NCBI RefSeq assembly: GCF_001540865.1
Contig: NC_033641.1
Span: 5,632,603 to 5,696,602, forward strand
Direction: 5' to 3'
DNA length: 64,000 bases
Source: Ananas comosus
Lineage: Eukaryota > Streptophyta > Magnoliopsida > Poales > Bromeliaceae
The position numbers and the translations under genes are program-made. Below are positions 3,038 through 41,000 of the stretch, one piece after another. The stretch's first letter is position 1, and every line of letters starts with the position of its first letter. The notes beneath the pieces are model-generated. The model was not told the DNA's origin. It saw only the letters and a list, made by a program, of their open reading frames with translations, and did no database searches.

Positions 3038-3165
3038 TCCGAACTTTAAAGCTAGGGTCCGGACCCAGAGAGTTGAGAAACTATGAAAATTGCAGATTTT
3101 GCAATTCTCACGCCCAAAGGGGTTTTCGCAGCTACGGGGTCCGGACCCTACCACTAGGGTCCGGA
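3038..3165. promoter_or_regulatory. TCCGGA-type palindrome array in LTR
   Basis: Cores are at 3038 (TCCGAA, decayed), 3058, 3140 and 3160, forming two pairs with 20-bp spacing. Full sites read GGGTCCGGACCC. This is the ACCGGT palindrome with both symmetric core positions swapped. It sits about 83 bp upstream of a TATA-like site (2948-2955, minus strand). Confidence 0.55.
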
Positions 3166-9448: not shown

Positions 9449-9449
9449 C

Positions 9450-10302
9450 GGGGCATTAGTGAGCCCGAAAGGCATAACCGTGTACTCATAGTGTCCATAA
9501 CGCGTACGAAACGCGGTCTTCTGAATATCCTCCGACTTAATCTTTAACTGATGGTAGCCGGATTGTAGGTCTATCTTCGAGTACACTCGTGACCCTTGTA
9601 ACTGATCAAATAAGTCGTCGATTCGGGGCAACGGGTACTTATTCTTTATTGTGACCCTATTCAACTCTCGATAATCCACGCAGAGTCGAAACGAGCCATC
9701 CTTCTTGCGCACGAACAACACCGGCGCTCCCCACGGTGATACGCTCGGCCGGATAAACCCCTTGTCGAGGAGATCTTGCAACTGATCCCTCAGTTCCCTC
9801 AGCTCCGCCGACGCCATGCGGTATGGGGCCTTGGAGATCGGCGCCGTCTCGGGAGTCAAGTCTATAACAAACTTGATCTCCCGATCCAGCGGCATCCCCA
9901 GTAACTTCGTGGGAAATACATCTGGAAATTCCCGCACCACCGATAAATCTTCTAATTTCGGCACCACCTGGTCCACCTCCACGACGGTCGCCAAAAATGC
10001 CGCGCAACCGCCGTTGACCAACTTCCTAGCTCTCGTCGCCGATACTGTCGCGACGAAGCAAGAACTCCGACAGGCTCGGTAAACAAACTCCTTCTGTCCT
10101 AGCTCCCGAAAGGTGATCGATTTATTCTTACAATCGATCGTGGCGTAATACTTCGAGAGCCAATCCATGCCCAAAATGACGTCATACGCCTCCAATTTAG
10201 TGAGTTCCAACATCCGGATGGGCATTATCCAGTCACCCACTTGTACTGGGCATGACGAGCATTCCGTGTAGGTATTGAACGACGATTCAGGACCCTCGAC
10301 TC
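9450..10302 (-). pseudogene. Element 1 pol, N-terminal part: protease end and RT palm/fingers
   Basis: The minus-strand frame encodes the C-terminal part of protease ([11 protein letters not shown]) and the first half of reverse transcriptase, with [35 protein letters not shown] and [10 protein letters not shown]. Upstream it is out of frame with the protease start because of the 7-bp repeat expansion at 10303-10330. Downstream it is out of frame with the remaining pol because one base is missing near 9449-9450. Comparison with element 2, which has the extra base, supports the deletion. Confidence 0.85.
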
Positions 10303-12160: not shown

Positions 12161-14647
12161 TGTCACGCCCCGAAACCGATACCAATTTGGTTCGGTCCGG
12201 GCGCGTCGAACAGACGCCGAACGAACAGGACCTCCCCTGTCCGCCCAAGGCTAGCCAACCGATCATGTATAGGGAATTGCCCAAGAAATCAATTCGTGAA
12301 TACATGACCACAGGGAGCACCACCAGTGCTAACAAAACGAGAGCAAGATACAAGTATGAGGCATACAAGTAGGTAAAGAGAGAAACTCTATCTATTACAT
12401 TCATTCATTCAACTTAATACATTTAAATCCATCTCTTACAACTTCCAAAATATAAATACAATCACTTAAATCTCACCCTATACAACATCTACTCTCAAGC
12501 ATAATATAGGGTAAAGCTAGTGCAAAAGGTAGGTAGCTAATGCAACTAGGGCGCTAGGCCCTTACCGCGATCCTCGCCATGCGAACTTGCGCTCGGCCCT
12601 GCAATAAAATGAGGGTGAGAACTAACTTCCTTAGTTCCCAGTGGGTTCGGCCACCGACTCCGCCGGTCTCCCCACTAGGTCCAAGTGGGCACAAGTAGAT
12701 AACCGGGTTGATAAATAGGTAATAAGCAAAGCGGTAAAGACAGGATAGTAAAGCTACACTACTATGCCCGAATCATAAACATATGGATGCATGTGCAATG
12801 AAATGGTAAGTAACTAACCCGTCAACATGTACAAAAAGTAAAGCTATGCACTTATTCATCAATCTCATTTACTTGTTTCTTAATCTCGTGGCTTCTCTGA
12901 AAGCTCGCCTACTACTCACTAGCCATCTCGAAGGTAGGGAGGGTCAACTCGCACTGCGAACCGAGATCGTCTGCCGGGACCCAAAATAGGCAATCCCTTG
13001 GGACCCAAAATAGGCAATTCCACGTGACCAACTCCGGAGCGCACTTCTTGTGTGGGGCTTCCATCACAAGTTAAAATCAGACCGTGAGCATGATCCAATT
13101 CTCTCCACTCTAGGGTACCCTATCCTCTAGGGTTACTACCATCATGTAGTCCATAGGCGTCGTATACACCAAGTTTAACATGTATCACTTGTTTTCTTAT
13201 ACACTATCAACTAGATTGCCACTCGTCCATTATTTACTATCGACTAGATGCCACTCGTTCTTTGTTTAACATCAGACCAACCATTGAGCCCATCTCTTTC
13301 TCTGCACTATAGGATTCATAAGTCTCGACCCAATCCTAATCGATCCACTATGCCAAGTATCCAATACATGCTACGATATCATCAAAGAAAGCATAAAGAA
13401 AGGCAATGCACAATCATCCTATAATGCAATAATACAAGATGTAAGAATCGAAATGTACTAAGACATAGAAGGGGGCCCAGTTGCTTCAGGATGGTCACCA
13501 CCCACCACTCTTGGTGATGCCGCAATGATAGAAAAACTCGACGTTGCGGTTCTTGCACGTTGCCCTACTCCTCGGGGCGAAGCGAGCCTTAAGTACCCGA
13601 TTCGGCGTTTTCTCCGCACCGCTCTTGGATCGAGAAACACTTCACCGACGCGTTCGAGGCCTAGCAATTAGTTTACGACCTATTAAGATAGATCAAAACC
13701 TATATTCCAAAAATCCCAAATCGTGCCCTAGAATGGCAACGAGGGGAAATCCGTGTGCAGCTCATTCACGAGCTCGAACCATCTATTTATCTCCAATAGT
13801 TCTATTCGAACCAATCCTAAACAATAAAATCAATCCTAGGAAATCTACCATGGATGGGTTTGGAGCTTACTCTAAGCCAAGCTCCAAGCTTGCCCTAGCT
13901 TGAAGGAGAGAGGGAAGAAGACCTTCTTCTTCTCCTTCTTCTTCTTCGTGGACCTCTCCTTCCACTTCTTCTTCTTTTCCTTCCTTTCTTTCTTTCTTCT
14001 CCTTCCTTTCTTTCTTCTCCTTCTTCTTTTCTTTCTAGAGAGAGAGAAGGAAAGAGTGTGAGGGGCAGAGAGGGCAAACGAGAGGGAGAGAGAGGTCCCC
14101 CAGCCTCTAATAAAGGCCATTTTGCAGATAGCCCCCTCAACTTTTCATCCTTTAAACCAACCCTCTCTGGGCATTTTCGCAGTGAGGGACCGGTCCCAGC
14201 TCGGGGAGACCGGTCCCCGAGCGCTGCCATCTCAAGTAGAGGGGTTTTCGCGTTCGGGAACCGGTCTTTGCCTGAGAGACCGGTCCCCGGGAGACCGGTC
14301 CTTGTCCGAGAGATCGGTTCCCGAAAGCTGAGTTTTCGGGACTTAGCCAAATTTCGGCTATTTTCGCTGGGCCAACGTTCGGGAACCGGTCCCTCACTGC
14401 CAGGGACCGGTCTCATCAGAGACCCCCGCAGCCCAGCCTGATGGGACCGGTCCCTCACTGCCAGGGACCGGTCCCCTAGAGCATTTTTGTTCTAGTGCAG
14501 GTTTTGCACTGGTGCTCTCGCGGACCTTTCCTTAATGCACTTTATACATTATAATCACCTTCGGACTTTCCGAAGCCTACGCACTCGACAACTAGTCGAT
14601 TCTAATCTAAGTCTAATCCTCGAATTTCGAGAATTCACTTCCTAACA
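12161..14647 (-). repeat. Element 1 5' LTR
   Basis: This 2,487-bp partner of the LTR at 4482 begins TGTCACGCCCC and ends CTTCCTAACA. Most of it is nearly identical to the 3' LTR, indicating a fairly recent insertion. The exception is about 13500-13810, where many single bases are missing relative to the partner. U3 holds the palindrome array at 14189-14472. Confidence 0.92.
14189..14472. promoter_or_regulatory. ACCGGT palindrome array in LTR
   Basis: Cores are at 14189, 14209, 14260, 14279, 14294, 14313 (ATCGGT), 14385, 14406, 14446 and 14467. This is the same ten-site layout as the other LTR of the element, with one site decayed. It lies in U3 just upstream of the presumed promoter. Confidence 0.6.
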
Positions 14648-17488: not shown

Positions 17489-19993
17489 TGTCACGCCCCG
17501 GGACCCAGCGGGAGCCCGCCCGGCGCGTGCCCAGACCCGCCATATGTCTACAACATATAAGGCGTCTAAAAACAACAATAATAACAGCAATAATAAAAGA
17601 CATCTAGAAGTATCAGAGCATAATAAATGTCTAAATGCTACCACAAGAGATAAGGATAAAACAGTAAATCCACTAAATAAAACATAGAGTAAGAACAATA
17701 GGAAATCCCAAATACAAGAGCTATAAGTAGGTACATAGGTGGTCTCTATACATGGATACAAAATCTCTCACTCTCTCTCAACTACAAAAAGAAAGAGTAA
17801 ACCACCTAGGCAAAGTACCGCTCCTCGCTAGCTAGCTAAGCGATCCCCTTGCCGCGATCCCGTGCCTCCGCCGGTGCCGAAGGCTCTGAAAAGTAAACCA
17901 TAAAACAGGGGCGTGAGAACTATTAAAAATAGTTCCCAGTGGGCAATTACTGACTTCAGTGAATGCACCACAAGGCCCAAAGCTACAAAAGATGTCAGTG
18001 ACTATAAAAGTAGAAAAGCGAAAGGTAAGTAAAAATGTAACTTACTACAACATGATATCTCTACTTAGCATAATTAGCATAAGTATGAAGCAACTATGCA
18101 TGAAGTAAAAGTCTCCAACTATCATAATGTTCACAATGCGAAATAGTAAAGTTCCGTTGTTTACTATTCTAGTCAATGTCCAAATAATACTCTAAGTCAT
18201 CATCTATCCACATGTCGTAACGGATATATAAAGTCCAATCTGAAGAGACCCACCCGAAGGCTGTCTATGGCCCTGAGACCCACCCGTAGGCTGTCTGGCC
18301 GGTGCCGAGCCTAATGGCCCCGTGGTAGTCATCATCCCCACCCTAGGAATGAGCCTGGCCCACGGCAATCCACTTCGGCGCCCAATCCCGCACGGCGAAT
18401 ATGTATCGCGATGGCCATCTCCGGAGTGCCGGCTTGTAGGGAGCGACCCTCACAAGCATGTGCGAATGAGCACAATGGCAAGTAGTCAAACGATCAGTCG
18501 CAAGTATCAAGTCCTCATGTCCAATAACATGGTATATATAGTAAATGTCCTCGTGGCCAAGTCACTATTTCATCATATCTCAAATATGGAATATAGTTGA
18601 TGTCAATGTGGCCTATTCTCAAGTCTCTATGTTGCAGTTTAATAATTCTCTAGTCCAAGTGCCTCTTTATGACACTATGGCTCATTTTGTCCCAACATGG
18701 ATACTAAGTTCAAGAACTTACAATTCTAGTCAAACCGAAGCATGAAACTTGATTTCCTATCATCTCATAGAATATTTGTCGCATGCATATTAACAAAGCA
18801 CATTGTCTCTCTCTCTCTACTATATAGAGTAAATTTTCTTGATGCACAACAAATGAGTTCTAAGCATTCAAAACTCTCATAAATGCTACTAAACATGAAT
18901 TTAAGGAGCATGAAAGCATTTAACCACTTAGGAGGAATTTCCTCCAATTTTCAAGGAAGCCAAACCCACCGATGGCAACGAAACTCCTCGTGCGCTCCAA
19001 CGAGGGTGTCCTCTAGTCTCCTAGTATCCTAGAGGTACAAGAACATGTGTCATACGGGCCAAACAAACAAAACCTAGCTCAAACATTAAGCTAATCAATC
19101 ATAGGTGAGGAAAACTCACCTCTAGTGCAAAAATCTCCTCTAAAGCTCCAAAATGAAGCTAGGGCTCATCCAATCCAACCTAATGGAAGCCTCTAATCCA
19201 AACAATCTAGCTTCAAAAGCCCTAGATCCAAAATGCCCAATATAAACCCTAATATTCCAATTCTAGGGTTTAATCTCACAAAAACCTCAAATCAAGGATC
19301 AAAGGGAGAAATCAAGTCTCTAACCTCTCAAGAAGCTCCAAACTTAGCTCCAATCCAAGTGGGGTGGGAGATCTCCTCAGCCACAAGCTCCTCTCCAAGC
19401 TCTAAGCCATCAACAATGGTGGAGAAGCCACCAAGATGCAAAAAGAGAAGAGAAAACCCAAATAAAAACCAAGCAAAGGGGTAAAAATGCAAAGAAAGGG
19501 AGAGAGAGCTCCTCTCACCTTCTCCTCCTCAGGTCCCAGCACAAAAGAAGCCCTAAGGGGCGTGGGTGCTGTTATAGATAGGCTACAATCGCGAAAAACC
19601 CCCTGCAGTTCAAACTGCACGAAATCTGCCTCCTTGTACCGGTACACGGGCTCTTGTACCGGTACAAGGCCGACGAAATTGCAAACCCGAGGCTCGGGTC
19701 GCGCGGTCTGCGGCTCTGTACCGGTACAAGCCCGATGGCTGTACCGGTACAACCATCAACCCTTGTACCGGTACAAGGCCAGTCTTGTTCCGGTACAAGC
19801 CCTGCTGCGGGCTACCCGAGAGCTGTCCAAAAATTCCAATTTTGGAATTTTGGTGCCAAGTCCCACTCCAACATCCTCGGGATGCGTGCCAGGGGTCGGG
19901 ACACTATCAACGACCCTCCAAAAACTGTGGAAAGGCTCCACACACAGATCAAACACTCGAATCTTGCGATTTGCTGAGATCCAGTGCATTACA
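17489..19993 (-). mobile_element. Solo LTR nested in a solo LTR
   Basis: This 2,505-bp solo LTR begins TGTCACGCCCCGGGACCC and ends CAGTGCATTACA. The target duplication ACTAT is perfect (17484-17488 and 19994-19998). It belongs to the same broad family as its host LTR but differs in U3, where it carries TGTACCGGTACA palindromes (19638-19794) instead of the GGGACCGGTCTC type. Confidence 0.92.
19638..19794. promoter_or_regulatory. TGTACCGGTACA palindrome array
   Basis: Cores are at 19638, 19658, 19720, 19743, 19767 and 19789 (TCCGGT, decayed), spaced 20, 62, 23, 24 and 22 bp. Sites are 12-14 bp palindromes (TTGTACCGGTACAA). A minus-strand TATA-like site (CTATAAC) lies at 19572-19579, about 59 bp downstream in LTR sense. 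Confidence 0.65.
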
Positions 19994-21456
19994 ACTATTC
20001 TAGTCAATGTCCACTTGTCACTTTAACTGTTTAAAGTTCAACTCTGATAAGACCCACCCGAAGGCTGTCTGGCTTAAGACCCACCCAAAGGCTGTCTGGC
20101 TTTACCGTGCCTAATGGCCCCGTGGTAGTCAACATCCCCACCCTAGGAATGAGCCTTTCCCACGGCAATCCACTTCGACGCCCAATCCCACACGGCGAAT
20201 ATGTATCGCGATGGCTAACTCCGGAGCGCCGGCTTGTAGGGAGCGACCTTCGCAAGCATGTGTGAATGAGCACAATGGCAAGCATGCGTATAAGTCTGTC
20301 TCAAGTCTCAAGTCCTCATGTCTATGAACATGGAATATATCAAATATCACAAAGGCCTATCACTATGTCATCATGTCTCTAACATGGAATATAGTCGATG
20401 TCCAATGGCCTATCACTATGTCTCTATGTTGCATTTTTATAGTTCACTAGTTTCAAGTGCCCCTTTATGACACTTTTGTTCAACGAGTCCAAGCATGATA
20501 ATTAGGTTCTCGAATGCATAATATGAGTCATTTTAAACATAGAAGACAAGTTTTTCACTCGGTAATGCGATTACTTTTCTCATACATGCAGCATATCCAT
20601 AAAGCTCTACTATATAGAGTGAAATTTTCATCATTCATAATGCATGCATTTTAAGTGATCTAAAATTTACATAATTCATATTTAGCATGGATTTGCATTC
20701 AAAAATACTTTACGACAAGTATAGGAAACATAGGGGCCATTTTGCCCCATGTTCATGAAGCCAAACCCACCGTTGATACCGAAACCCTTCGTAAGCTCCG
20801 ACGAAGGTGTCGACTAGTCTCCTAGCACCCTAAAGATGTAGGAACAAGGGTCAAGCAAATCTTACGGTCAACCCTAAGCTCAATCAATAAGCAACATAAG
20901 CTAAGGTGAAGAAAAACTCACCTAGATGAAGAAATCCTCTCTCAAACTCCAAATAGGAGTTAGAGTTCTTCAAATCCAACCTAAATAAAGGTTCTAAACC
21001 CATCAATTAGGTTTCAAAACCCTCAAATCAAAAATTCCCAAAATAAACCCTAAGTCCCAAAATCTAGGGTTTCATAAGGTAAAATCTAGAAAAACTTGTA
21101 TTAAATAAAAAATACAAGCTACCAACTCAAGAGAAGCTCCAATCCAAGCTCTAAACCAAGTAGGGTTGGAGTTTGATCCTCCACAAGGCTCCAACCGCAA
21201 GCTCCAAGCCACCAAGGGTGAGGGATGAGGGGAAGAAGATGATCCAAAGCCTCAAAATCTAGCTCTCCTCCAACTCTTCGTCTTCTCCTCCTTCTTCTTC
21301 TCTCTCTAAAAGTGTAGGGAGAGTGTGAGGGAAAGAAAATGAGGATGAGAGGGAGGGGAGAGGCTCTATAAGCCTTCAAATGTAACAAAATCCACTTAGG
21401 TCCCTTAAAAATCCACTCTGTGCACTGCCCGGTCTGGGCAGTTTTCGCGCTGAGGG

Positions 21457-21668
21457 ACCGGTCTCCCCGACACCTGGGACCGGTCTCTCAGTTCGTCCCG
21501 CAAAACCAACGTTCGGGAACCGGTCTCTCCCCGCCAGGGACCGATCTCTCAGACCATTCTCGCAAAATACGCGTTCGGAAACCGATCTCTTCCAGCCAGG
21601 GACTGGTTGCCTCAAGCCCTGCCGCAGCATTGTTCTGAGGGGACCGGTCTCTCCTATCAAGGACCGGT
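21457..21668. promoter_or_regulatory. ACCGGT palindrome array in solo LTR
   Basis: Cores are at 21457, 21479, 21519, 21540 (ACCGAT), 21581 (ACCGAT), 21602 (ACTGGT), 21643 and 21663. That gives four pairs spaced 22, 21, 21 and 20 bp, about 40 bp apart. The minus-strand TATA-like GGCTTATAGAG is about 85 bp away. Confidence 0.6.
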
Positions 21669-23362
21669 CCCCGAGAGTGAAAACTCTCAGGACAAAGTCA
21701 AAACTCTAGAGATCGAACTTTTATGCCGGAATACCATCTACGGCCTTCCACCAAGTATGAAAAAGTTCAGAGTACATATCAAATATTCGAACATCGCAAT
21801 TTGCAAAGGTCCAGTGTGCTACACCGACTTACCCACTAGGTCTATTTCAGACATAAGCATTTCAACGGAAAGAAAATAGTAGCCAAACTAATGCTAATAC
21901 TATGCCTGCAAGAAAGATGTCAGCGGATATAGATATGAAAGCAATAAATATGCATGCATGCTTGTTCGATACTTTTTTTTGGCTTTTTACCCAATCTTAT
22001 TGGTTAACTTTGTTAACCCCAATGACTCACAACCCAAAATCCCTTTTGATCGAGGAGGCTTCAAGCACTTCCACTCAAGAGACCGTCCTTCGGGGCCACT
22101 ATCCCCGTGGTGACCTACTCCGGAGCGCACCGCTTGAGGAGGAGCTACCGCCCTCAAGCCAAGACTTATCGTGAGTATTGATCCAATTTCCAACTCGGGA
22201 ACTTATAGCCACTAGTCACAATGCCACTATCATAAAAGGTTTTCTACGTATTTGTTCATGCCACTCTTGGTTAAACTATGTTTAACAATCACTATCTCAA
22301 AGCCAATTTTGTCTCTATAGTCAATGTCACCTTTGTTTACTAAGATCAATGTCCAAGTCTCCTATTCATACATCTCTAGGGTTCTAGCATACATGTCCAT
22401 TACGGTTCTATCATTCTTTATGTCCAACTACATTATAAGCATATAAATAAAGTTACACCAAAGTTCACATGTAAGGAACCCTAATATGTATGAACGACTA
22501 CATACAGTATGCTCAAATAAAAGTGACATAGACATAAAAGGGAATCCAACGATCCCGGAATGCACCCCCACCTCGCATGGTCGTGTAGGTGTAGAATATG
22601 ACGACTCCCGAACTTTACGAAAATCGATTCCGCGTCCTATAACCAAAATAGTGCCATATTAGGCCCTTTGTACATGAACCATACTTAAACATTTTCGTAA
22701 CGTCGAACGGAGTTGTCCAACGCGTCGAGGACACCCCCAATTAGGTTTCTACGAGGTCAATTCGCCCTCGAAAAATCCTAGGGCAAAAGCCCCAAATTTG
22801 AGCCCTAACAATGCCCTATAGCAATAGCTCCTAGATTGATCTCTTCCCTAAGCAAAAGATAGCTTAGAATCATCTAAGAAGCATTCTAATAAAGTTTCCA
22901 AGCCTCTTGGACCAACCTTAGGGCATCTACTTTGAGCCCTAGTGATCCACCATGAGAGCTCTACAAGAAAACCATGGATTTCATGGTTTCTTAGCTCAAC
23001 AAGGGTTCTAAAGCTAGAAATAAACTCAAAACCCTACAAGTTTGGGTTAAAATCCAAACCCTAGACTCTTATGAACCAAAACCTCACCTTTGCCCAAGTT
23101 CCACCAAGCTCCTTCTTGTAGGTGAGCTCCTTGGACCACCAAAACCCTAAACTCCCTCTTCTCCAAGTTCTTCTTCTTCTTCTTCTCCTTCAAGCCCTAG
23201 GTGAGTTCTAGAGAGAGAGAGAAGAGGAAATGAGAGGAAGGTGAAAAATGGCTGAGGAAAGGGAGAAGGGTTGAGTATATAAGGTGTTGTAACAATTACA
23301 ACAAGGTCCTCCCACTATTTCCCTTGTGCACTGCCCAGACTGGGCATTTTTCGCAGTGAGGG

Positions 23363-23584
23363 ACCGGTCTCCCCAACTAGGGACCGGTCCACGAAAGCTT
23401 CTCCCGCGGTCTGCGCAGGCTGCGCGCGATGCAACCGGTCTCCCTCAATGGAACCGGTCTCTGGGGACCGGTCTCTCCTCGCAGAGACCGGTTCCCGAGA
23501 GCTGGTTTTCCAGGACTTAGCCGATGTTTTGGCCATCTCGCTGCCTACACGTTCGGGGACCGGTCTCTCCCACCAGGGACCGGT
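23363..23584. promoter_or_regulatory. ACCGGT palindrome array in element 2 3' LTR
   Basis: Cores are at 23363, 23383, 23434, 23453, 23467, 23487, 23559 and 23579. Pair spacings are 20, 19, 20 and 20 bp, with one 14-bp step. The TATA box near 23275-23284 is about 79 bp downstream in LTR sense. Confidence 0.65.
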
Positions 23585-23762
23585 CCCCGAGAGCACAAAA
23601 CCTGCAGTTTTGCATATTTTAATTTTCAAAGCTCTCAAAGATTTTCAGTAATGCATTTTTGCATTATTTGACGCCTTCGGCCTTTCCGAAGTGTACTAAC
23701 CTCGCACTTTGGTCAATTTGACCAAGGTTCGAATTTGATTACCGAAGTTTTAGTATGTTACA

Positions 23763-23781
23763 TTCTCCACCCCTTAAATTT
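23763..23781 (-). other. Element 2 polypurine tract
   Basis: The minus strand reads AAGGGGTGGAGAA immediately before the 3' LTR end (TGTAACATACT). It is followed in sequence by the same GTTTCG-rich block as in element 1. Confidence 0.78.
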
Positions 23782-23826
23782 AGTTTCGTCCGCGAAACTA
23801 ATTATTTAGAGATTGAGGTGCATACC

Positions 23827-26800
23827 TCAATCCAGTTCCTCGAAGAGATGGGGATAACGCTCCTTCATCGCGTCCTCAAGCTCCCACGTTTCTTCCCGAT
23901 CGCCGTGTTCGCTCCAATGAATTTTAACATACGGGATATCGCGGTTCCGTAGTTTTCTCATTTCCCGATCCACGATGTAAGCCAAGAACTCCTCGTAAGT
24001 CATATCCTCTTGAAGCTCTATCGGTATATACGAGAGAATATGCTCCGGATCATGGACATACTTGCGGAGATTGGATACATGAAACACGTCGTGCACCCCC
24101 ACAAGCCTTGGTGGTAATGCTAACTTGTATGCCACCGCGCCGACTCGTTCCAAAATCTCGAAGGGTCCGATATAGCGGAGACTTAGCTTCCCGCGAACAC
24201 CGAACCGGTTAACTCCTCACATCGGTGATACTTTTAAGAATACACGGTCGCCAACCGCGAACTTAATATCCCTCCGCCACTTGTCGGCATAACTTTTGTG
24301 CCTTGATTGCGCCGTCGCTAATCTTTGTCGGGCAAGGCGAATTTTTTCCTCTGCCTCCCACACCACATCCGGGCCAAGAACAACTTTCTCGCCCACCTCG
24401 CTCCAATGTATAGGCGAGCGACACTTCCTTCCATAAAGTGCCTCGAATGGCGCCACCGCAATACTTTCTTGATAGCTATTGTTGTATGCGAATTCCGCCA
24501 TCGGCAAATGATTGTGCCATCCGCCCTTATAATCGAGTACACACGCTCGAAGCATGTCCTCAAGTATTTGAATAGTTCTCTCCGATTGACCATCACTTTG
24601 AGGATGAAATGCTGTACTAAAGTCGAGCCGTGTGCCCATTGCATCCTGCAAGCTCTTTCAAAAATGAGATGTGAACCTAGGGTCCCGATCCGATACAATG
24701 GATACCGGAACCCCGTGAACTCTCACCACCTCGTCGAGATAGACTTGTGCTAGCTTGTCTCCCGACCAAGTAGTGTGGATCGGCAAAAAGTGTGCCGATT
24801 TTGTCAACCGGTCCACAACTACCCAAATCGCATTATGTCCACCTTGTGATCTAGGCAAACCCGTCACGAAATCCATTGCGATATTTTTCATTTCCACACG
24901 GGTATAGGTAGCCTTTGCAATTTTCCCGCCGAAAATCAATGTTCCGCCTTGACTTGTTGGCACGTGAGACACTGCACCACGAACTCTCCTATATCTTTCT
25001 TCATGCTCGGCCACCAATAATATAATTTCAGATCTCGATACTATAGGAGGATTGATGCGCTTCTTGGATAATGCCCTCCGAAGGTCATCATTCTTGGGTA
25101 CGCACCAATTTTCCCGATATCGAAGTGCACTATCGGTTCCAATGCCAAAATCGTTGGCACTACTGCTTTCTACCTTGCTCCGCATCTTTTGGAGAAATTC
25201 ATCGGAAGCTTGCAATCCTTTTATCTTCTCCAACAAGGTTGGTTGCACGATCAGTGTGGCAAGTGTTGCCGGCACTCCCGGCGCCACAACTTCTAGACCA
25301 AACCGCTGCATCACTTTTTGCAGAGCCGGTTGAGGTGTAACTTCCGTCGCCAAATTTTTCGCCGATTTTCTACTTAGAGCATCGGCCACGATGTTTGCTT
25401 TTCCGGGGTGGTAGAGAATCGTGAAATCATAATCTTTGAGCAACTCTAACCACCGCGTCTGTCGCAGATTTAACTCCTTCTGGGTGAACAAGTATTTGAG
25501 ACTCTTATGGTCAGTATAGATCTCACAACATTCACCATACAAGTAATGCCTCCATAGTTTTAGCGCGAAGATAACCGCCGCTAATTCGAGATCATGCATC
25601 GGGTAGTTCTTCTCATAGCTCTTCAATTGGCGCGAAGCATAAGTTATGACTCAGCCGTTTTGCATTAAGACACACCCGAGACCAATGTATGAAGCATCAC
25701 TGTATATGACATAACTCTCTCCCGGTGTCGGCAAGGCAAGCACCGGAGTAGATGTCAATCTATTCTTTAGCTCCTCAAAGCTCCGCTCACACTCGGGGCT
25801 CCAAACATTCTTCACCCCTTTGAGCGTAAGGCGTGTTAGTGGAGTTATAATCTTAGCAAACCCCTTCACGAACCGCCGGTAGTAGCCCGCAAGTCCAAGG
25901 AAGCTACGAATTTCCGCCACACTTGTCGGGCGAGGCCAATCTTTAATCGCCTCAACTTTCTTTGGGTCTGCCGAGATGCCATCCCTGGATATAACGTGAC
26001 CCAAGAAAGTAACCTCCGAAAGCCAAAACTCAAATTTCTTCAGTTTTGAATAACGCTTTTCCTTCCAGAGTATCTCCAACACGAGCCTTAAATGCTCTTC
26101 GTGTTCTTCTTCGGTCCGAGAATATACCAATACGTCGTCAATGAATACCACGACGCACCGGTCTAATAGCGGATGGAAGACTCTATTCATTAGGTCCATA
26201 AATGCTGCCGGAGCATTAGTGAGCCCGAATGGCATGACTGTAAACTCATAATGGCCATACCGCGTACGGTACGCCGTTTTATGCACGTCTTTAGGCCGTA
26301 TCTTCAACTGATGATACCCCGACTGCAGATCAATCTTAGAATATACCCTTGACCCCTGCAACTGATCGAACAGATCATCAATCCTCGGCAACGGGTACCT
26401 GTTCTTGATAGTCACCTTGTTCAACTCGCGATAATCAACGCAGAGTCGAAGTGTGCCGTCCTTCTTCTTTACAAATAACACCGGAGCTCTCCACGGAGAC
26501 ACGCTCGGCCGCACGAAGCCTTTATCGAGCAAGTCTTGCAACTGAGCTTTTAGCTCATTTAGCTCTACCGGTGCCATTCTATACGGAGCCTTCGAAACTG
26601 GCGCCGCCCCGGGAATCAAGTCAATAACAAACTCGACTTTCCGGTCCGGTGGCAATCCCGGTAACTCCGCCGGAAATACATCCGGGTACTCGCATACCAC
26701 CCGAATCTTTTCCAACTCCGGGTACTCTTTTTGAAGGTCCACAATGGTCGCCAAATAAGCCTTGCAACCACCCTTTATCATCTTTCTAGCCCTCACCGAC

Positions 26801-27060
26801 GATATAGTCGCCGTGAAGCGTGCTCCATTGCATGCCTTATAAACCATCTCCTCTTGGTTAGGCTCACGAAAAGTGATCACCTTCCTTTCGCAATCGATGA
26901 CCGTGTAATACTTGGAAAGCCAATTGGTACCCAAGATTGCGTCAAAGCCCCACAGATGCTTTAACACTAATAGGTCGATCGGCATGATCCAATCGCCTAT
27001 CTGCACTGGGCAGTCCAAACACTCGCCATGCACATGAAACGTAAGTCTAGGTGCTGTCAC
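23827..27060 (-). pseudogene. Element 2 pol: protease end, RT, RNase H, integrase, chromodomain
   Basis: In minus-strand order: protease C-terminus ([14 protein letters not shown]), reverse transcriptase ([38 protein letters not shown], and FIDD catalytic box), RNase H ([10 protein letters not shown]), integrase ([24 protein letters not shown] with the D, D, E triad) and a chromodomain ([20 protein letters not shown]). Three in-frame stops cut it: 25651-25653, 24658-24660 and 24217-24219. The integrase zinc-binding region near 25000-25070 also loses frame. At least two of the stops fit C-to-T decay. It is unlikely to be active. Confidence 0.88.
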
Positions 27061-27334
27061 CGTCCAATACTCCTCATTATGCGTGACCTCTATGTCATGA
27101 GCAAGTGCAAATGATGCTGTTATGAATGATTAAGATGCACCTGTGTCAAATATGGCTCTAGCTCTAGTGCCTCTGACAAGGATAATACCTGCCACGACAT
27201 CGTCGGGAACGGTAATCGGCGGCTTCTCCACCTGAGTGGCAAATACCCGCCCACTAGGTGCTCGAGAAGCCTCCGGCTGACGAAGCCGACGATCGTCCAG
27301 CAGACGTAGCGGGTGGCAGTCCCGCCAGCTGTCG
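27061..27334 (-). pseudogene. Element 2 aspartic protease
   Basis: The minus strand shows the protease motif FDTGAS, with a TAA immediately after it at 27132-27130, then SFITASFA. Upstream the frame is broken by a TAG at the gag end. It lies between gag and RT as expected for gypsy elements. Confidence 0.7.
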
Positions 27335-28510
27335 CTAAGTATACTGAACTGAAGCTGATGACGGAGCTGGGGATGTGCCGCCCGGGCACTCTCGTCCTAT
27401 GTGTCCCAGTTGGCGGCATCGGAAACACCGCCCCTCCCGCTGAGGGCAAGTAGTAACTCGGTGGTCTCCGCCACATATCACACACAGGTAGGTAGTCTGG
27501 CTCTGAGTCTGACTCCTGCCTCCCCACCACTGCCATCGTTGTTGCCGCGGGGGTCGCTTAGAACTCGATTGCCCCGCAGATCCACCAGCTGCCCGCTTCT
27601 TGGACTTGTCCTTTTCCTTATCTTTCTCAAATGCCTCGCACTCATCTCGCGCAATGGCATTGCCGCGCTCCACCCAAAGCGCGCGATCTAACACTTCCTC
27701 GTAGGTCTTTAAGCGGAATGCGTGAATAACCTTGAATATTTCGGGTCGCAACCCGCGCTCGAAAACCTCCGCTCGGTCCCTATCACCATGAACAAAGCTC
27801 GGCACGCAATTGACGAGGTGCGTGAACTCCCGTTCATACTCCCGCACCCTGCGACTTCCTTGCCTTAGCTTCCGAAAATCCTCCTTGATTTTTCTTTTGT
27901 CGCTCTCAAGAAAATACTCCATAAGTAGCATCTCCCGAAACGCCTCCCAAGTAATAGCAGCGTGCTCCAACGAATGATTTTTCTTTGCCTCAGTCCACCA
28001 CAACCGAGCTGACCCGTCGTGAGCCGCAAGGTGAACTTTATCCTTCTCGAGGGTGTAGATATCCTCGAACAACGCCTCCATCGCGGCTAGCCAACTCTCC
28101 ATCACCCACGGATCCTTCACATCACCGTTGAAGGTCGAAGGGTTGAACCGCTTGAATGCCGTCAGCGCCGCCAACGTGCGCTCCTACTCGGCCTCAAGTA
28201 CATCGGGAATAGGAGCCGATGAACCCGATGCCGTCAGAGGAATAGCCGTCACTGGTGCCGCCGCCACCGCAGGAGGTGGTGCTATAGGAGCAGCAGGTGC
28301 GGGCGGATCCCTCGGCACAGATGCCGCCGCCGCCGCCTGTTGCGCCATCATCTCGTGGAGCTGTCCAATCTGCTCCCCTTGTAGCCGCATAGCCCCGGCC
28401 AAAGCCGCTACTTGGGCTCGCAACTCGCGCACTTCATCCGATCCCGATTGTTCAGGCACTTCATCGAGCAGTGCCGAAGTGGCTCTACGTGTGTAGCGTC
28501 TCGGGGACAT
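27335..28510 (-). pseudogene. Element 2 gag
   Basis: The frame starts MSPRRYTRR at 28510, like element 1. It is stopped by an in-frame TAG at 28186-28184 and continues in the same frame to 27335. The core reads MEALFEDIYTLEKDKV, YFLESDKRKIKEDF and KLRQGSRRVREYEREF, followed by a basic segment and zinc knuckles (CVICGGDHRVTTC, with one spacing change, and CFRCRQLGHIGREC). The first knuckle lacks the canonical spacing, so it may be decayed. Confidence 0.88.
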
Positions 28511-28834
28511 TGATCCTGAAACGCATCACACGCATTAGTACTCGACACACGTGACTCTTACACGTTCCAAGTAACTACCCAATTAAGCGAAAGCAACCAA
28601 GCATAATTATTTCCAACTCTCGGTGTTATGTGGTCGGCCGCCCGACAAAGTCCCTTAAGAAGGCAACAATTAAGCCTTCTAATCCATCTCTACTTCCTTC
28701 TAGAGAAGTGTTATCGCTAACCCAATCATTCGCTTTCGCATAAGCCAAATCCACGTTGAAACGTTTCCTAAGCTCCTAAGGTCTCCAATTCCTAGGATTC
28801 TTAGGTCATTCCTAGACTTTTGCTTTCAACTTCT

Positions 28835-28845
28835 CTCTGATACCA
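28835..28845 (-). other. Element 2 primer binding site
   Basis: The minus strand reads TGGTATCAGAG, an 11-base match to initiator tRNA-Met priming sites. It sits 7 bases from the 5' LTR end at 28853. Confidence 0.85.
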
Positions 28846-28852
28846 TTATATC

Positions 28853-31310
28853 TGTCACGCCCCAATCCCCGCCAATTTGGTCAGATTCGGGTCACGTCAA
28901 CAGACGCCGAACGGACAGCATTTCCCCTATCCGCCCAAGGCTCCAATAACATGTATAATTAAACAATGAACAAAGAGATATGCAATTATACAAGGCTTGC
29001 ACGAGGGCAAGCAACACGGAAGCGGAAGCTCTAAGCTAGTATATACAAACATACATAATACGTGATTACTTTTGAACCAAATAAAAGTAAACTACCACTA
29101 TTACATTCTTTTCTATTCAACATAATTCTTTACATTTAGCCATTCACCCAATTACATATTTGTTTTCAACTATACAACTTTCTAAATCAACAAAGGAAGT
29201 TGATACATGTAAACCAAAAGAAAAATGACTACAAAATGTGAAATGGTCCCGGTGGCCGCTATCTACGGTGCTAAACCCTTGCCTCGGTCATCCACTGCCC
29301 CGCTCGTGCTAGGACCTATAGGGTTAGTGGTGTGAGAACTACAACGAAGTTCCCAGTGGGTTCGGCAACCGACCTCGCCGACTTACCCACTAGGTCTATT
29401 TCAAGCATAAGCATTTCAACGGAAAGAAAATAGTAGCCAAACTAATGCTAATACTATGCCTGCGAGAAAGATATCAGCGGATATAGATATGAAGCAATAA
29501 ATATGCATGCATGCTTGTTCGATACTTTCCTTTGGCTTTTTACCCAATCTTACCGGTTAACTTTGTTAACCCCAATGACTCACAACCCAAAATCCCTTTT
29601 GATCGAGGAGGCTTCGAGCACTTTCACTCGAGGGACCGTCCTTCGGGGCCATTATCCCCGTGGTGACCTACTCCGGAGCGCACCGCTTGAGGGGGAGCTA
29701 TCGCCCTCAAGCCAAGACTTATCGTGAGTATTGATCTAATTCCCAACTCGGGAACGTATAGCCACTAGTCACAATGCCACTATCATAATAGGTTTTCTAC
29801 CTATTTGTTCAAGCCACTCTTGGTTAAACTATATTTAACAATCACTATCTCAATGCCAACTTGTCTCTATAGTCAATGTCACATTTGTTTACTAAAATCA
29901 AGGTCCAAGTCTCCTATTGATACATCTCTAGGGTTCTAGCATACATGTCCATTATGGTTTTATCATTCTTTATGTCCAACTACATTATAAGCATATAAAT
30001 AAAGTTACACCAAAGTTCACATGTAAGCAACCCTAATATGCATGAACGACTATATACAGTATGCTCAAATAAAAGTGACATAGACATAAAAGGGAATCCA
30101 ACGATTCCGGAATGCACCCCCCACCTCGCGTGGTCGTGTAGGTGTAGAATATGACGACTCCCGAACTTTACGAAAGCCGATTCCGCGTCCTATAACCAAA
30201 ATAGTGCCATATTAGACCCTTTGTACATTAACCATACTTAAACATTTCGTAACGTCGAACATAGTTGTCCAACGCATCGAGGACACCCCCAATTAGGTTT
30301 CTACGAGGTCAATTCGCCCTCGAAAAATTCTAGGACAAAAGCCTCAAATTTGAGCCCTAACAATGCCCTATAGCAATAGCTCCTAGATTGATCTCTTCCC
30401 TAAGTAAAAGATAGCTTAGAATCATCTAAGAAGTATTCTAACAAAGTTTCCAAGCCTCTTGGACCAACCTTAGGGCATCTACTTTGAGCCCTAGTGATCC
30501 ACCATGAGAGCTCTACAAGAAAACCATGGATTTCATAGTTTCTTAGCTCAACAAGAGTTCTAAAGCTAGAAATAAACTCAAAACCCTACAACTTTGGGTT
30601 AAAATTCAAACCCTAGACTCTTATGAACCAAAACCTTACCTTTGCCAAAGTTCCACCAAGCTCCTTCTTGTAGGTGAGCTACTTGGACCACCAAAACCCT
30701 AAACTCCCTCTTCTCCAAGTTCTTCTTCTTCTTCTCCTTCAAGCCCTAGGTGAGTTCTAGAGAGAGAGAGGAGAGGAAATAAGAGGATGGTGAAAAATGG
30801 CTGAGGAAAGGGAGAAGGGTTGAGTATATAAGGTGTTATAACAATTCCAACAATGTCCTCCCACTATTTCCCTTGTGCACTGCCCAAACTGGACATTTTT
30901 CGCAGTGAGGGACCGGTCTCCCCGACCAGGGACCGATTCCGGAGAGTTTCTCCCGCAGTCTGCGCAGGTTGCGCGCGATGCAACCAGTCTCCCTCAATAA
31001 AACCGGTCTCTCAGGACCGGTCTCTTCTCGCAGGGACCGATTCCCGAAAGCTGGTTTTCCAGGACTTAGCCGATTTTTCGGCCATCTCGCTGCCTACGCG
31101 TTCGGGGACCGGTCTCTCCCACCAGGGACCGGTCCCCGAGAGCACAAAACCTGCAGTTTGAAGATTTTGATTTCCAAAGCTCTCGAAGATCCCCAGTAAT
31201 GCATTTTTGCATTATTTGACGCCTTCGGCCTTTCCGAAGTATACCAATCTCGCACTTTGGTCAATTTGACCAAGGCTCAAATTTGATTACCGAAGTTTCG
31301 GTATGTTACA
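28853..31310 (-). repeat. Element 2 5' LTR
   Basis: This intact 2,458-bp LTR starts TGTCACGCCCCAATCC and ends GGTATGTTACA. It carries a TATA box (minus strand, around 30825-30832) and a palindrome array at 30912-31133. Several sites in the array differ from those in the 3' copy. Confidence 0.92.
30912..31133. promoter_or_regulatory. ACCGGT palindrome array in element 2 5' LTR
   Basis: Cores are at 30912, 30932 (ACCGAT), 30983 (ACCAGT), 31002, 31016, 31036 (ACCGAT), 31108 and 31128. Pair spacings are 20, 19, 20 and 20 bp. Three of the eight sites carry single changes relative to the other LTR, all consistent with C/G to T/A changes. Confidence 0.65.
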
Positions 31311-31340
31311 AACTTGGTACTTTTAAAAGCATAGGAGCTC

Positions 31341-31342
<2 letters not shown>

Positions 31343-31393
<51 letters not shown>
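31343..31393. repeat. (TA)n microsatellite
   Basis: About 50 bp of TA dinucleotides lie immediately after the right end of the split MITE. A second TE-like sequence (CACGGAGCGCTCCGTG) follows directly. Confidence 0.9.
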
Positions 31394-31396
<3 letters not shown>

Positions 31397-31600
31397 GGAG
31401 CGCTCCGTGCGACCAAGTTGTGTAAGATCAAGCGGCTTCCAAATCGACGATCGGCTCCGATACACATTGATCGACACTATGGAAAATAGTTAGAAACCAA
31501 AGTTCATAATTTGGCGATATCAGGTACCTATCAAACAAGTAGTCTAAAAGTGAACGGCTGAAAATAAAAATCGGCGTAGCTCCGTAGATAGAGCCTTACC
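31394..31600. mobile_element. Decayed non-autonomous element beside (TA)n
   Basis: It starts with the perfect palindrome CACGGAGCGCTCCGTG right at the TA tract. I see no coding potential. The position next to TA repeats suggests another microsatellite-associated element, but I cannot define the right end. Confidence 0.3.
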
Positions 31601-31679
31601 ATTCTGACCAGAGATAGCGATACCCCAAGGTGGTCTAGCTTAGGGGTGTAGAGATGAAGGAAACAACTTGTAATAACCT

Positions 31680-31939
31680 TGTGATTGTTGATTGTATTTG
31701 GAAGTCAAATGTAAAAGAGAATGTAATATAAAGCATATGATGTGAATGCTTGTAATAACTTAGTTGTTTTATGTTTTTGATACTTCCTTATGCAATCTGT
31801 GCTTGAATACTGTTCCTGGTCAGAACCTCGTGTATTATATGAATTGTGACGCCTAGGACGTATAGGAAAAACTCTGTCCGTTCGGCAATCTGTCGGCGGG
31901 CCCGAATCCAACCAAATAGGCGGGTCTCGGGGTGTGCCA
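31680..31939 (+). mobile_element. LTR end fragment, inverted
   Basis: The end, GGGTCTCGGGGTGTGCCA, is a decayed form of the GCGGGGCGTGACA terminus. The segment from about 31725 matches, inverted, the LTR fragment at 32838-33096 (shared GATACTTCCTTATGCAATCT). The left limit is uncertain. Confidence 0.5.
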
Positions 31940-32048
31940 AAGTGAGTTCTAAGATATTTGACCATAAAGTTTTCAATAATGCGCAATAAAATTTGGAGTG
32001 TAGAAAATCCGTTCATGGAGTATGATTAATTTGAGACATGTGGGAGAT
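31940..32048 (+). mobile_element. Copia element 3' internal end with PPT
   Basis: The short stretch ends in the motif GACATGTGGGAGATT, followed by TGTTAG. That is the usual polypurine tract plus 3' LTR start of plant Ty1/copia elements. The rest of the coding body is missing; truncation is at about 31940. Confidence 0.6.
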
Positions 32049-32837
32049 TGTTAGTATTTCCATAAATATGGCCCAATTAATCTGTGTTATCCCTGGAGTA
32101 CAGCAGGTGAGGTTTGTCGACACGTCGGGAGAGTGTCGGGACAAGTCCGAGTCGCGTTAGCGCGATATGGAGGCCGAACGGACTCAGTGGAGATGCGAGG
32201 GCATGAGTTAGCGCTGGAATCTGCAAAATGCAGATTTTCTGCTTGCTGTACAGGTACAACCATCAAGGCATACCGGTACATCTTGCTGTACCGGTACAAC
32301 ATCAGAGGTGTACCAGTACACAGCGCATGTCCCCGCGCAGACTGCTCTCGGGTTGCCATTTGTACCGGTACAAATGCCCGTGTACCGGTACACCAGGGTA
32401 GGCAAGGGGCTTTTTGGTAATTCTCTTGCCTTGATTGTATTACCACCCCTTCTCCCTCCCTATATAGGATAGAGAGATCAGAGAGGAGAGGATTAGTGCG
32501 CTCTCTCTCTCTTCCCCTTGTGCTTGACCGTGCGTGGTGGAGGAGCTCGGGTGAAGTTCGGGTGTCGTCGACGTCGCGCCGCGGTGCCGTTCGAGCGTGT
32601 TTTCGTCATCGTAGAGCTGCGGGGAGGCCGGGCGAGGGTGCATTTTCGCCGTTCTCGACGTCGTGCCGGTTTTTCAGGTGGGTTAATCGTCGGTTTGTCT
32701 TCTAAGTATATAGAGATAGTCGGCATGTGTCGTTGTAGTTGTTTTTGCATATTCTATTTGCTCGATTCATGGATTTGGTGTTTCTTTTACAAAAATCTGA
32801 ATTCGAGCCTAGTGTTACTAAATCTACTTGCACATGT
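32049..32837 (+). repeat. Copia-type 3' LTR
   Basis: It starts TGTTAGTATTTCC and ends about 32834 in TGCACA, some 786 bp. The U3 holds a TGTACCGGTACA palindrome array (32250-32389), then a TATA box (CTATATAGG, 32459-32467), then GA-rich and GC-rich leader sequence. An LTR of a different type has inserted at 32838. Confidence 0.6.
32250..32389. promoter_or_regulatory. TGTACCGGTACA palindrome array in Copia LTR
   Basis: Cores are at 32250 (ACAGGT), 32272, 32290, 32312 (ACCAGT), 32364 and 32384. Spacings are 22, 18, 22, 52 and 20 bp. The array ends about 71 bp upstream of the TATA box. The motif is the same as in the gypsy solo LTR 17489-19993, although the two LTRs are otherwise unrelated. Confidence 0.65.
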
Positions 32838-33096
32838 TGTCACGCCCCGCGACCAACCGCCTATTTGGACCGGGTCGCGGCGCCGACGACAGACCGCCGA
32901 ACGGACCGAAAATTCCCTTGTACGCGGACAGAGTCTCCCCAGTACGTCCAAGGCGTCGCAATCCAAACAATCAACGAATGTTCCAACAAGGAACGGATAT
33001 CAATCCAGATTGCATAAGGAAGTATCAAATACATAATCTACTTGCTATTACAAGCATTTATTTTACAACCACTCTTTACATCACAGTTTCAGTTTA
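32838..33096 (-). mobile_element. LTR fragment ending at an N
   Basis: It starts TGTCACGCCCCGCGACC and continues for 259 bases to the N at 33097, where the assembly meets a TA tract. The other end of this LTR is not seen. It is a third type of LTR, related to the inverted fragment at 31680-31939. Confidence 0.6.
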
Positions 33097-38032: not shown

Positions 38033-41000
38033 CTATATAGCAATCGGAACTCAGCATTTTTCCATAAAGCTCTAAAGATGATGAGAATTTTAGATAGCCA
38101 TTTAAAAGGAATTATCTGAATTATGATTTCAAGACTATAACTTCGTGGATGATAAATGGAATATTATAGTGGAAACTTTGAAGCTTGATGTATAAGTCTG
38201 TTCAGAAAACAAAGAAAAACATAGACTAAAATTTATGATTTGTTACAAAGAAAATGGACGAAAATTGATGATTTAAAACAAATCCTATTAGACCTTGTTG
38301 CTCCCATCTCACATTTCTCAATTTTTAATTAACAAACACTATACTTGAATATAATAGTTGATTTTTGGAGCTACTCTCCAGTCAACATAGGTCAATACGT
38401 GCCGTATTTACCTATATGTGATAGTAGCTGCTTGTATTGATAAATAAGATACTTGTAAGTGGTTTTGGGCAACTAGACACTAAAAATAATTTTATGTTTT
38501 GAAGAAAGCGGCGAATAATTTGCCGCATTTAGAACACGATGATTCATTCACCACTTAGGCCTAGTTTTGTAAATAAATTTAGTAAAGGACTACTTCTATA
38601 ATTATAATGCTTGTTAAGCTTATTAATAAAAGAATTTCTATTAGTAATGTTTTCGAAGTTCGTCTGAGTTCCAACATATGTTTTCAAATTAACATGGTAA
38701 AGAGCTATTTCTTTTTTTCTAGAAACATTAATCCTACTAGGAAGAGAGTGAATTAAAGCATAACCTAAGAGAATTGCCGACCGTGATGATGTTATTTATC
38801 CTCAAATAAAAAACCTAAATTTCTTGTTATTTTCTTCTTCCTACTTATTTGCTTATACTTTCTTCCTACTTGTTATTTGCTTATACTTTCCTGTGAGCAT
38901 AATCTTTTTATTACTGTAAGATTATACCATTTTTCCTTCATGAATGCAAAATGTCTAGTAATGTTTCTCCCATGGAAGATGCTGGTAATGTTTTTCGAAA
39001 AAAGGATAAAAAGTTGACATCCGGTGTATGGAAAATTATGAAAAGATAGTTGAAATAAAAAAAAATTTGATGGAAAGAATATAAAACATATGATCCCTAA
39101 CAATAACCCAAAATCCCCTACACGATTAGTTACGAAAGCTTTTTGACAAAAGTGGCTAAAGAAAAATGTAGGCAAAAGAATAAAGTGTCTGATGCGAAAA
39201 GCTCTCTAGGGACAACACGTTTATGGAATCACTATAAAAGCACCCATAGCCAACTAACTTATCAAGAAATTTTACAAGCATCAGAAAGTGCGGAGGGGAT
39301 ATGTTCTTTTGGCTGCATATAAGTACGATGAAGAGGATATATTATAAGCTCTGCATATAAGTATGATGAAGAGGATTAATTACAAGCTTTTTGTCAATGT
39401 TTACCAAGCATGAATATCTATTCGCCATGGCAGAACATTAAGGACTTACTCATTTCATCAAATCTTTGCACCTGACATTTTCTATAAAATCTCATGCTAC
39501 TATTTCTAAGGATGTTGTGGATCACGATTGTAAGGTACCGAACTTCTGAAATTATGAAGTTGCAGGGTATGTTGGTTTGGAAAGCCATTAGAATGATTCC
39601 GGTGAAGTTCGGAAGCATTCGGGCGTTTTCGGAGCGGGTAGGCGCGAAAATGGGACCCGAAAGGCTATGTTGGACCATAAACTAAATCCGGCATTAGCGC
39701 GGATGAAAAAATGATGAAAATACGCTCGAAAACATGTTTGGAGAGTCTCGGTTCGATTTGAAAAGAATCGGAGGCCAAACGAGCGAAAACGAGTGAAAAC
39801 AGAGAAGAAACGAAAAAGGCTGAAATTTGGCTAAGTCCTAAAAATGCTAAAATTCTGGACCTACGGGGACCGGTCCCTCAAGTCCAAGGACCGGTCCCTT
39901 ATACAAAAAATTGCCCCGCGGGGGCAGTGCATAAAATACAAAGTTGAGGGGCTGTTTTGCAATTGTTGCATGAGTTGGGGTATATGGGTGATGTAGGACT
40001 CATTCCCTCTCATTTCTCTCATTTGCAACCACCCAATACACCCTCTCTCTCTCTCTCTCTCTAGAAGCTCTCCCTCTCTCTAGACGTGGAATCAAGAGGA
40101 GGATTGGTGGAGATTTAGAGCTTAAAGGAGGATCACCATTGTTGTCTTCTTCCTTAGCTTGGAGAAGAAGCTTAGTAGAGGTAAGCTCTTTGCCTTCTCA
40201 TGGTAGAATGCTTGGATTAGGGTTTTACACTCTAGAAATGAAACTTAATGATGCTCTAGAAGTAATTAATCTCATTTATTGCTTGGGATAATGCTTGTAT
40301 GAAGCTAATTGCAATAATTGGGATTTAGGGCTCCAAAAAGAGGGCTTTTGCTCATGAGTAGTTTTGATCTAAATTGATCACTCTCTAACCTAATTGTTAG
40401 GCCTACGAACGCGTTCGTGCACTCAGTTTGAGTATTCATCGAGCCTACGCGAAGATATTGAGGAAATGGACTGTTAGAGCTTCGTTTCCGCCTGGAGGGC
40501 CGACGAGGCATCTAAAAATTATGAGATAAAGATCGTAGCATCGTGGCATCAAGTTATAGACCTTTAATTTCCGGATTGCAGATTGGTGGTCGTTCGGTGG
40601 TCGAGCGTGAGATTGAGCCGAACCGGGCGGCGTGTGCCGCGGGAGGCCGATTGCAAGTGACTATAAGCAATCGGAACGCAATAAAAGGTGGGGGGTGTCC
40701 ATCCCGAAGCAACTGGGCTTCCTTTTATGTCTAAGTTCTATTTTGATCATATTCATATATTGATATTATGCATTATAGGATTAGTAGATGATTACATTCC
40801 ATTTTCTTGCATTGGGGGCTTGACACTTGAACTTAGGTTGCATGAGGATTGGGTCATGTGACAAGAATTCTATAGTGACAAGAATGATGATGAACTTGGA
40901 CTTGTGATGATGAAAACAAGTGGCATTCAAATTAGTATAGTAGAGATACTATAATATGAACGAGTAGCATGTCAATTTAGTGTATTGAGACACATACAAC

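Follow-up and report, generated by a model that had tools for sequence, protein, structure and literature searches.

Host-factor binding sites have been described in the long terminal repeats (LTRs) of several plant retrotransposons. Among the closest known cases are the heat-responsive elements in the ONSEN/COPIA78, COPIA37 and TERESTRA LTRs, which are host-factor sites gained repeatedly by different families, some of them by duplication (PMC5059998). Such borrowing of host regulators by LTR elements is known family by family. Here we describe a 64,000-nucleotide stretch of the pineapple genome (Ananas comosus, NC_033641.1, positions 5,632,603 to 5,696,602; referred to below as the window), in which LTRs carry clustered sites as in the heat-responsive elements, in this case arrays of short palindromes with the core ACCGGT. 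The arrays lie shortly before TATA-like sites in several gypsy families and in one family with a copia-type gag, named F4. We propose that they are upstream activating arrays in U3 promoters, read by a dimeric DNA-binding protein, a reading to which we give a probability of roughly 0.55 from the sequence evidence. In PMC1940011, as far as its available text goes, ACCGGT is named only as a rare microsatellite motif; the accessible part of a review covering host factors for plant LTR elements (PMC12786077) contains neither 'palindrom' nor 'pineapple', and no description of such arrays was found in the available text of the open-access (PMC) literature.

Arrays of 2-10 sites were found at each place where a preliminary description of the window had reported them. 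The window contains 71 copies of ACCGGT, compared to 8.7 expected from its dinucleotide content (200 dinucleotide shuffles: mean 8.7, maximum 18), and 25 pairs of ACCGGT 19-24 bp apart, whereas the shuffles averaged 0.01 such pairs and never gave more than 1. The arrays, 4,041 bp in total, hold 59 of the 71 copies, and the remaining 12, spread over about 60 kb, are close to background. Pairs were then counted genome-wide (381,958,007 bases in 3,128 contigs; spacings measured start to start), with the reversed pattern TGGCCA, which also gives a palindromic hexamer pair and lacks CpG, as control. ACCGGT pairs 19-22 bp apart numbered 30,583 versus 616 for the control, a ratio that is not a pure noise ratio because the control is itself elevated at these spacings. 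The counts were 5,146 versus 388 at 6-18 bp, 3,159 versus 100 at 23-26 bp and 23,933 versus 894 at 31-60 bp, while spacing 11 showed no excess (24 versus 16). Cluster frequency is thus far above compositional expectation both in the window and genome-wide, which was the comparison that the preliminary description had proposed. As a separate observation, TGGCCA pairs are about five times commoner at 19-22 bp than at other spacings, which hints at another repeat family.

The arrays examined start about 150-340 bp into the LTR. Those of the window, and the truncated LTR around one of them, are as follows.

Array A1, 1262..1390, minus strand: five exact ACCGGT sites of GG type in an LTR of family F5, with an LTR-start-like sequence at 1584.
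Array A2, 3058..3165, minus strand: a variant with the core TCCGGA (GGGTCCGGACCC) in an F5 LTR, with an LTR-start-like sequence at 3347.
Array A3, 6503..6786, minus strand: 10 sites of GG type in the 3' LTR of a gypsy F5 element, LTR start 6961.
Array A4, 14189..14472, minus strand: nine exact sites of GG type in the matching LTR of the element that carries A3, LTR start 14647.
Array A5, 19638..19794, minus strand: five exact sites and one decayed site of TGT type in a gypsy F1 LTR, start 19993.
Array A6, 21457..21668, minus strand: five exact sites of GG type, plus decayed sites, in 62-bp units of a gypsy F1 LTR, start 21823.
Array A7, 23363..23584, minus strand: eight sites of GG type in a gypsy F2 LTR, start about 23762.
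Array A8, 30912..31133, minus strand: five exact sites of GG type in a gypsy F2 LTR, start 31310.
Truncated F3 (gypsy) LTR, 32083..32839, plus strand: labelled Copia in the preliminary description.
Array A9, 32250..32389, plus strand: four exact and about two decayed sites of TGT type within the F3 LTR.
Array A10, 39869..39895, plus strand: only two sites, GG type.
Array A11, 62442..62636, minus strand: six exact sites of GG type in a gypsy F2 LTR, start about 62832.

The core ACCGGT, given in the preliminary description for the arrays in general, holds for most of them; in the array reported at 3038 (A2) the core is instead TCCGGA, at 3058, 3140 and 3160. The element carrying A3 has a pol open reading frame (ORF) at 7053-9455, and in A4 one site has been lost via C to T. 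In A9 the first site, at 32250, is decayed, the first exact site is at 32272, and the last site is followed, 71 bp downstream, by TATATAG.

The palindromes extend beyond the core. In an analysis of 29 of the 34 arrays (second LTRs and near-copies were dropped), 79% and 68% of the 152 sites had matching partners at flank positions 1 and 3, respectively, versus 41% and 36% after shuffling. Symmetry was weak at position 4 and mostly ended 4 nt beyond the core, although one array (L018) has a longer dyad of 24 bp. Among the genome pairs listed, the inner neighbours were complementary in 80 of 90 distinct pairs (shuffled mean 47, maximum 61). The arm types seen were GGGACCGGTCYC, TGTACCGGTACA, forms with one extra base (TGTNACCGGTNACA) and the TCCGGA-core form at 3058-3165. 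Both GG and TGT arms occur within single families: in F1, GG was found in A6, L007 and L029 and TGT in A5, L002, L018, L022 and L005; in F2 and F2-like loci, GG was found in A7, A8, A11 and L011 and TGT-like arms in L051 and L057; in F4, GG was found in L015/L050 and TGT in L010/L049, L056, L069 and L071. All F3 arrays seen are of TGT type. An F2-like gypsy LTR (L051, 1196-1390) also carries an 84-bp tandem repeat in which two forms of ACCGGT alternate, one with GTA/GAC flanks and one with GTAC arms.

Shared arms also mean that any two sites of one array could pair with each other, and some doublets, such as that at 23559, have complementary outer flanks. The palindromes might accordingly be imagined to fold on each other as hairpins or cruciforms in the RNA of the 3' LTR or in DNA. 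Across 63 doublets, however, the outer flanks were as complementary as shuffled ones at positions 4-8 and 10, and only position 9 exceeded them (0.44 versus 0.30). Since complementarity between sites does not otherwise extend past the dyads, a hairpin element is weakened as a candidate, and we regard it as very improbable.

Longer spacings between sites favour multiples of the helical repeat. For adjacent spacings of at least 30 bp, deduplicated by lineage (39 of 69 values, from 127; 30 of the 34 arrays used, the other four being second LTRs or near-copies), the best period was 10.5 bp with a phase near 0 (R 0.63, 95% null 0.36, n=39). By lineage, R was 0.71 in F1 (n=14), 0.96 in F2 and F5 (n=11), 0.84 in F3 (n=8) and 0.82 in F3b (n=8). 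Among the 95 genome pairs listed at 31-60 bp, 53 were not interrupted by a further site, and of those 24 fell at 40-42 bp and 13 at 50-52 bp, with none at 36-38, 43, 49 or 53-58 bp. The listed pairs and many arrays of the spacing analysis lie in one and the same stretch of a chromosome, and the two sets are not independent.

The position relative to the promoter is also constrained. In 31 of the 34 arrays (W4, W8 and L071 were dropped as second LTRs or near-copies), TATA-like sites with one mismatch allowed were located 60-79 bp downstream of the last exact site in 15 arrays and 80-99 bp downstream in 10, whereas every other 20-bp bin contained at most four. This agrees with the earlier placement of the arrays just upstream of a TATA box. 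The strict TATA pattern is present in only 17 of the 34 arrays, in a scan using approximate LTR starts for W1, W3 and W4, later placed at 1584, 6961 and 14647. TATAAATAA is present in all six F4 arrays, at a distance of 55-78 bp.

In several arrays, a 61-62-bp unit containing a site pair about 20 bp apart is repeated in tandem, and 62 bp is close to six helical turns, so that duplication alone repeats the internal spacings. It could be argued that palindromes were present by chance in a U3 segment prone to repeats and that the spacing reflects the repeat unit, with no protein reading the sites, or, as a variant, with nucleosome positioning involved. Against this, a fixed core with symmetric arms that switch together recurs in lineages with differing linkers, at a fixed place before TATA-like sites, and we consider chance duplication unlikely. 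Among the one-mismatch sites of the window arrays, 12 of 15 differ by C>T or G>A, a bias as would be expected, following insertion, of methylated DNA.

To place the arrays in their elements, loci from the genome were compared with the window. A genome pair search gave 24 loci representing 16 separate arrays, all from the first stretch of one chromosome, and each of the 16 could be placed by sequence (four in F1, one in F2, seven in F3, two in F3b and two in F4). Another 12 regions, outside this sample, were selected manually to allow typing and to include unusual pairs. Gypsy coding sequence accompanies most of the families. In F1 (L002) a gypsy integrase with SH3_Tf2-1 (E 2.2e-26) precedes the LTR, F3b adjoins gypsy pol in L055, and the LTRs of F2 and of the window family F5 also come after gypsy coding sequence.

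The F3 LTR at 32083-32839, containing A9, had been taken for a Copia-type LTR, and this label proved to be wrong. The LTR is 75-77% identical to those of L020, L021 and L028 over its whole length and 67-73% identical to parts of other F3 copies. In L021 and L026, gypsy pol is followed by GTAGTGGGGGAGG and then immediately by an LTR homologous to 32083-32839, which identifies the latter as gypsy and rules out the Copia assignment. The ends of a gypsy integrase/chromodomain and a polypurine tract precede the F3 LTR in both loci, whose coding sequence matches the gypsy ORF of the window at 58-74% (tblastn). The L021 product contains SH3_Tf2-1 (E 2.6e-9, above the cut-off) and a weak Chromo match below the cut-off (E 0.034). 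By these signatures F3 would be a gypsy chromovirus, with an integrase bearing SH3 and a chromodomain end before the 3' LTR. Within the window, no gypsy pol was found directly upstream of the LTR at 32083. The only Copia-like part is presumably the 42 bp preceding 32083. The truncated LTR is flanked by inverted sequences of 78% similarity (31745-31880 and 32925-33058).

Sharing across unrelated families, which the preliminary description had based on the 32250 array, is borne out instead by F4, a high-copy family with arrays at the same place in the LTR as those of gypsy. For F4, 40 of 1,081 first-look candidates were scored and 16 loci fetched. In four of the 16 (L062, L067, L069 and L071) the LTR is followed by a sequence resembling a primer-binding site and by the start of gag. 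The one F4 gag scanned, that of L069, matched PF14223 (E 1.3e-22) and DUF4219; F4 thus has a copia-type gag after its 5' LTR and primer-binding site. No F4 reverse transcriptase (RVT_2) was seen within some 1.5 kb upstream or downstream of the LTR start, and F4 may therefore be a non-autonomous, TR_GAG-like element, its copia status resting on gag. Seven F4 copies (L065, L068, L070, L073, L074, L075 and L061) contain an extra ORF before the 3' LTR; both copies scanned, L070 and L075, matched PF20167, 'putative plant transposon protein' (E 9.6e-18 and 2e-18). In L066, coding sequence similar to gypsy RNase H lies about 1.2-0.5 kb before the LTR start, directly before the 3' end of F4, and this locus is either a nested insertion or a chimera.

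Copia elements identified by their reverse transcriptase were sampled separately (2,322 first-look RVT_2 candidates, of which 150 were scored and 20 loci, in eight clusters, were fetched). None of the 20 had an array of its own, a limited negative, since for most of them the sequence read reached no further than about 0.8 kb beyond the pol stop and the LTR starts were not each verified. The single array seen among these loci (L029) sits in a gypsy F1 LTR inserted there.

In the published account of pineapple retrotransposons (PMC6022998), Del makes up 16.4% and TR_GAG 7.7% of the assembly. These shares fit the gypsy families and F4, respectively, and the gypsy array families would agree with the Del lineage of that work. 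Its main text contains no occurrence of 'promoter', 'palindrom' or 'motif'.

How gypsy and F4 came to have the same arrays was examined by comparing linkers with the sites masked (two TGT-type arrays and one GG-type array of F4 were used). In the same and the inverted orientation, z was 2.4 and 0.1 for F4 versus F3, 1.7 and 3.2 for F4 versus F1, 3.0 and -0.1 for F4b versus F1, and 1.6 and 3.4 for F4b versus F2/F5. Since the masked linkers are only weakly alike (z 2.4-3.4 in whichever orientation scored higher, -0.1 to 1.7 in the opposite one), the arrays of F4 and gypsy do not look like the product of one recent conversion, an origin that, by the preliminary description, would have refuted its reading, and such a conversion is not supported. 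A ready-made array might nevertheless have passed between gypsy and copia-type LTRs at an earlier time, by recombination or template switching, and have been inherited since. This concerns the origin of the arrays and is compatible with their being binding sites. With sites included, the GG-type arrays of L015 (F4) and L007 (gypsy F1) align at 75% over 115 bp, which leaves room for an old transfer; the spacing order 22-17-23 is common to L028 (gypsy F3) and L058 (F4), with 22-17-24 in L069 (F4); and the z values in the better orientation, as well as the gypsy coding sequence next to F4 in L066, point the same way. On the other hand, the linker similarity is weak and its orientation flips among comparisons, while within gypsy F3 versus F1 reaches z 6.0 and 5.7.

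A second motif, CTCTCGGG, also separates the two groups. It occurs 12 times in the window (1.3 expected), 11 of them in array regions:

CTCTCGGG in array regions: 1291, 1351, 1412, 3167, 19815, 21670, 23494, 23586, 31135, 32345 and 62469.
CTCTCGGG outside the arrays: 35897.

The motif is sense-oriented in 22 of 28 gypsy arrays, antisense in none, and present in none of the six F4 arrays, which speaks against transfer. We consider a transferred module plausible, if somewhat short of even odds. Our reading of the sequences is that the arrays would have been inherited by descent within the gypsy lineage and that F4 would have received its own through an old transfer or a convergent gain.

Under the activating-array reading, each dyad of 12-14 bp with the core ACCGGT would be a putative site for a dimeric sequence-specific DNA-binding protein. 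Pairs of sites lie about two helical turns apart and recur at further whole turns; this near-whole-turn spacing implies that the bound dimers would sit on one face of the DNA, about 60-100 bp before the TATA box, and cooperate. Arrays grow within lineages by tandem duplication, their sites switch arm type together, and old copies decay through C-to-T change. As both the gypsy families and the copia-type F4 carry arrays, the protein would act in trans and would most simply be a host factor. Taken together, the dyads, the near-whole-turn spacing, the fixed position ahead of the TATA-like site and the presence in two superfamilies would find their simplest explanation in a dimeric activator, rather than a repressor, probably encoded by the host. 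The earlier suggestion of a promoter-proximal element shared by unrelated families fits this evidence, and its further part, a single host factor, would follow only conditionally. If the reading holds, the recurrence across families and the tens of thousands of site pairs mean that one or a few factors may control much of the mobile DNA of the plant.

Several results weigh against this reading. Taken by itself, F4 shows no significant helical spacing (R 0.51, n=8, p 0.13). The listed pairs at 31-60 bp give a best period of 9.8, from a range too short to fix the period, and the p-values for spacing are overstated because copies, shared descent and duplication make the values non-independent. 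Flank position 2, which is nearly constant, shows no covariation, and small excesses of symmetry persist at positions 7 and 9. The TGGCCA control is elevated at 19-22 bp, with 154 pairs per spacing versus 25-30 elsewhere. Finally, a single factor of fixed specificity does not account for two arm types and a form with the core TCCGGA; the two arm types could reflect more than one factor.

A wider proposal takes the arm types further. A small set of trans-acting factors, from the host or from one mobile element, might read helically phased arrays in two LTR superfamilies as a shared promoter code, with unrelated lineages switching in parallel between TGT and GG in the manner of an arms race. We find this doubtful but worth stating. 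If the factor came from a mobile element, such as from the PF20167 ORF of F4, the motif of that element would be in use by other families. With two arm types inside several lineages, sequence comparison would also allow the co-evolution of factor and target to be followed. The definition of the sites is good enough for their use as bait, and the factor, the tissue and the choice between activation and repression become directly testable.

Among known proteins, Grainyhead/CP2 recognizes, as a homodimer, a palindrome that shares this core (ACCGGTT, AACCGGTT; PMC3348937). In the available text of that source the site is reported in animals and a fungus, and the arms found here are mostly GT/GG, not A/T. 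A search for the CP2 domain gave no match in this genome, nor in 14 control genomes, and so had no working positive control.

The VANC target arrays of VANDAL elements (PMC5735166) resemble the present arrays in being dense, non-coding clusters of short motifs that grow in tandem and whose units change type jointly. By analogy, the arrays could be landing sites for a silencing remover encoded by a mobile element, for which the PF20167 ORF of F4 might be a candidate. However, VANDAL are not LTR elements, and their motifs are reported to be family-specific, in a single orientation and read by a protein that the element itself encodes, whereas the sites described here are dyads, shared across families and placed before TATA-like sites; PF20167, moreover, is without demonstrated DNA binding. 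An anti-silencing role is in our view improbable.

The ONSEN-type elements are known from copia families, where nGAAn motifs serve heat shock factors (PMC5059998). In pineapple, by comparison, ACCGGT sites with helical spacing occur in gypsy as well as copia-type elements of one genome. Several gypsy families and a copia-type family thus have in common the palindrome, its place in the promoter and a similar rule of spacing.

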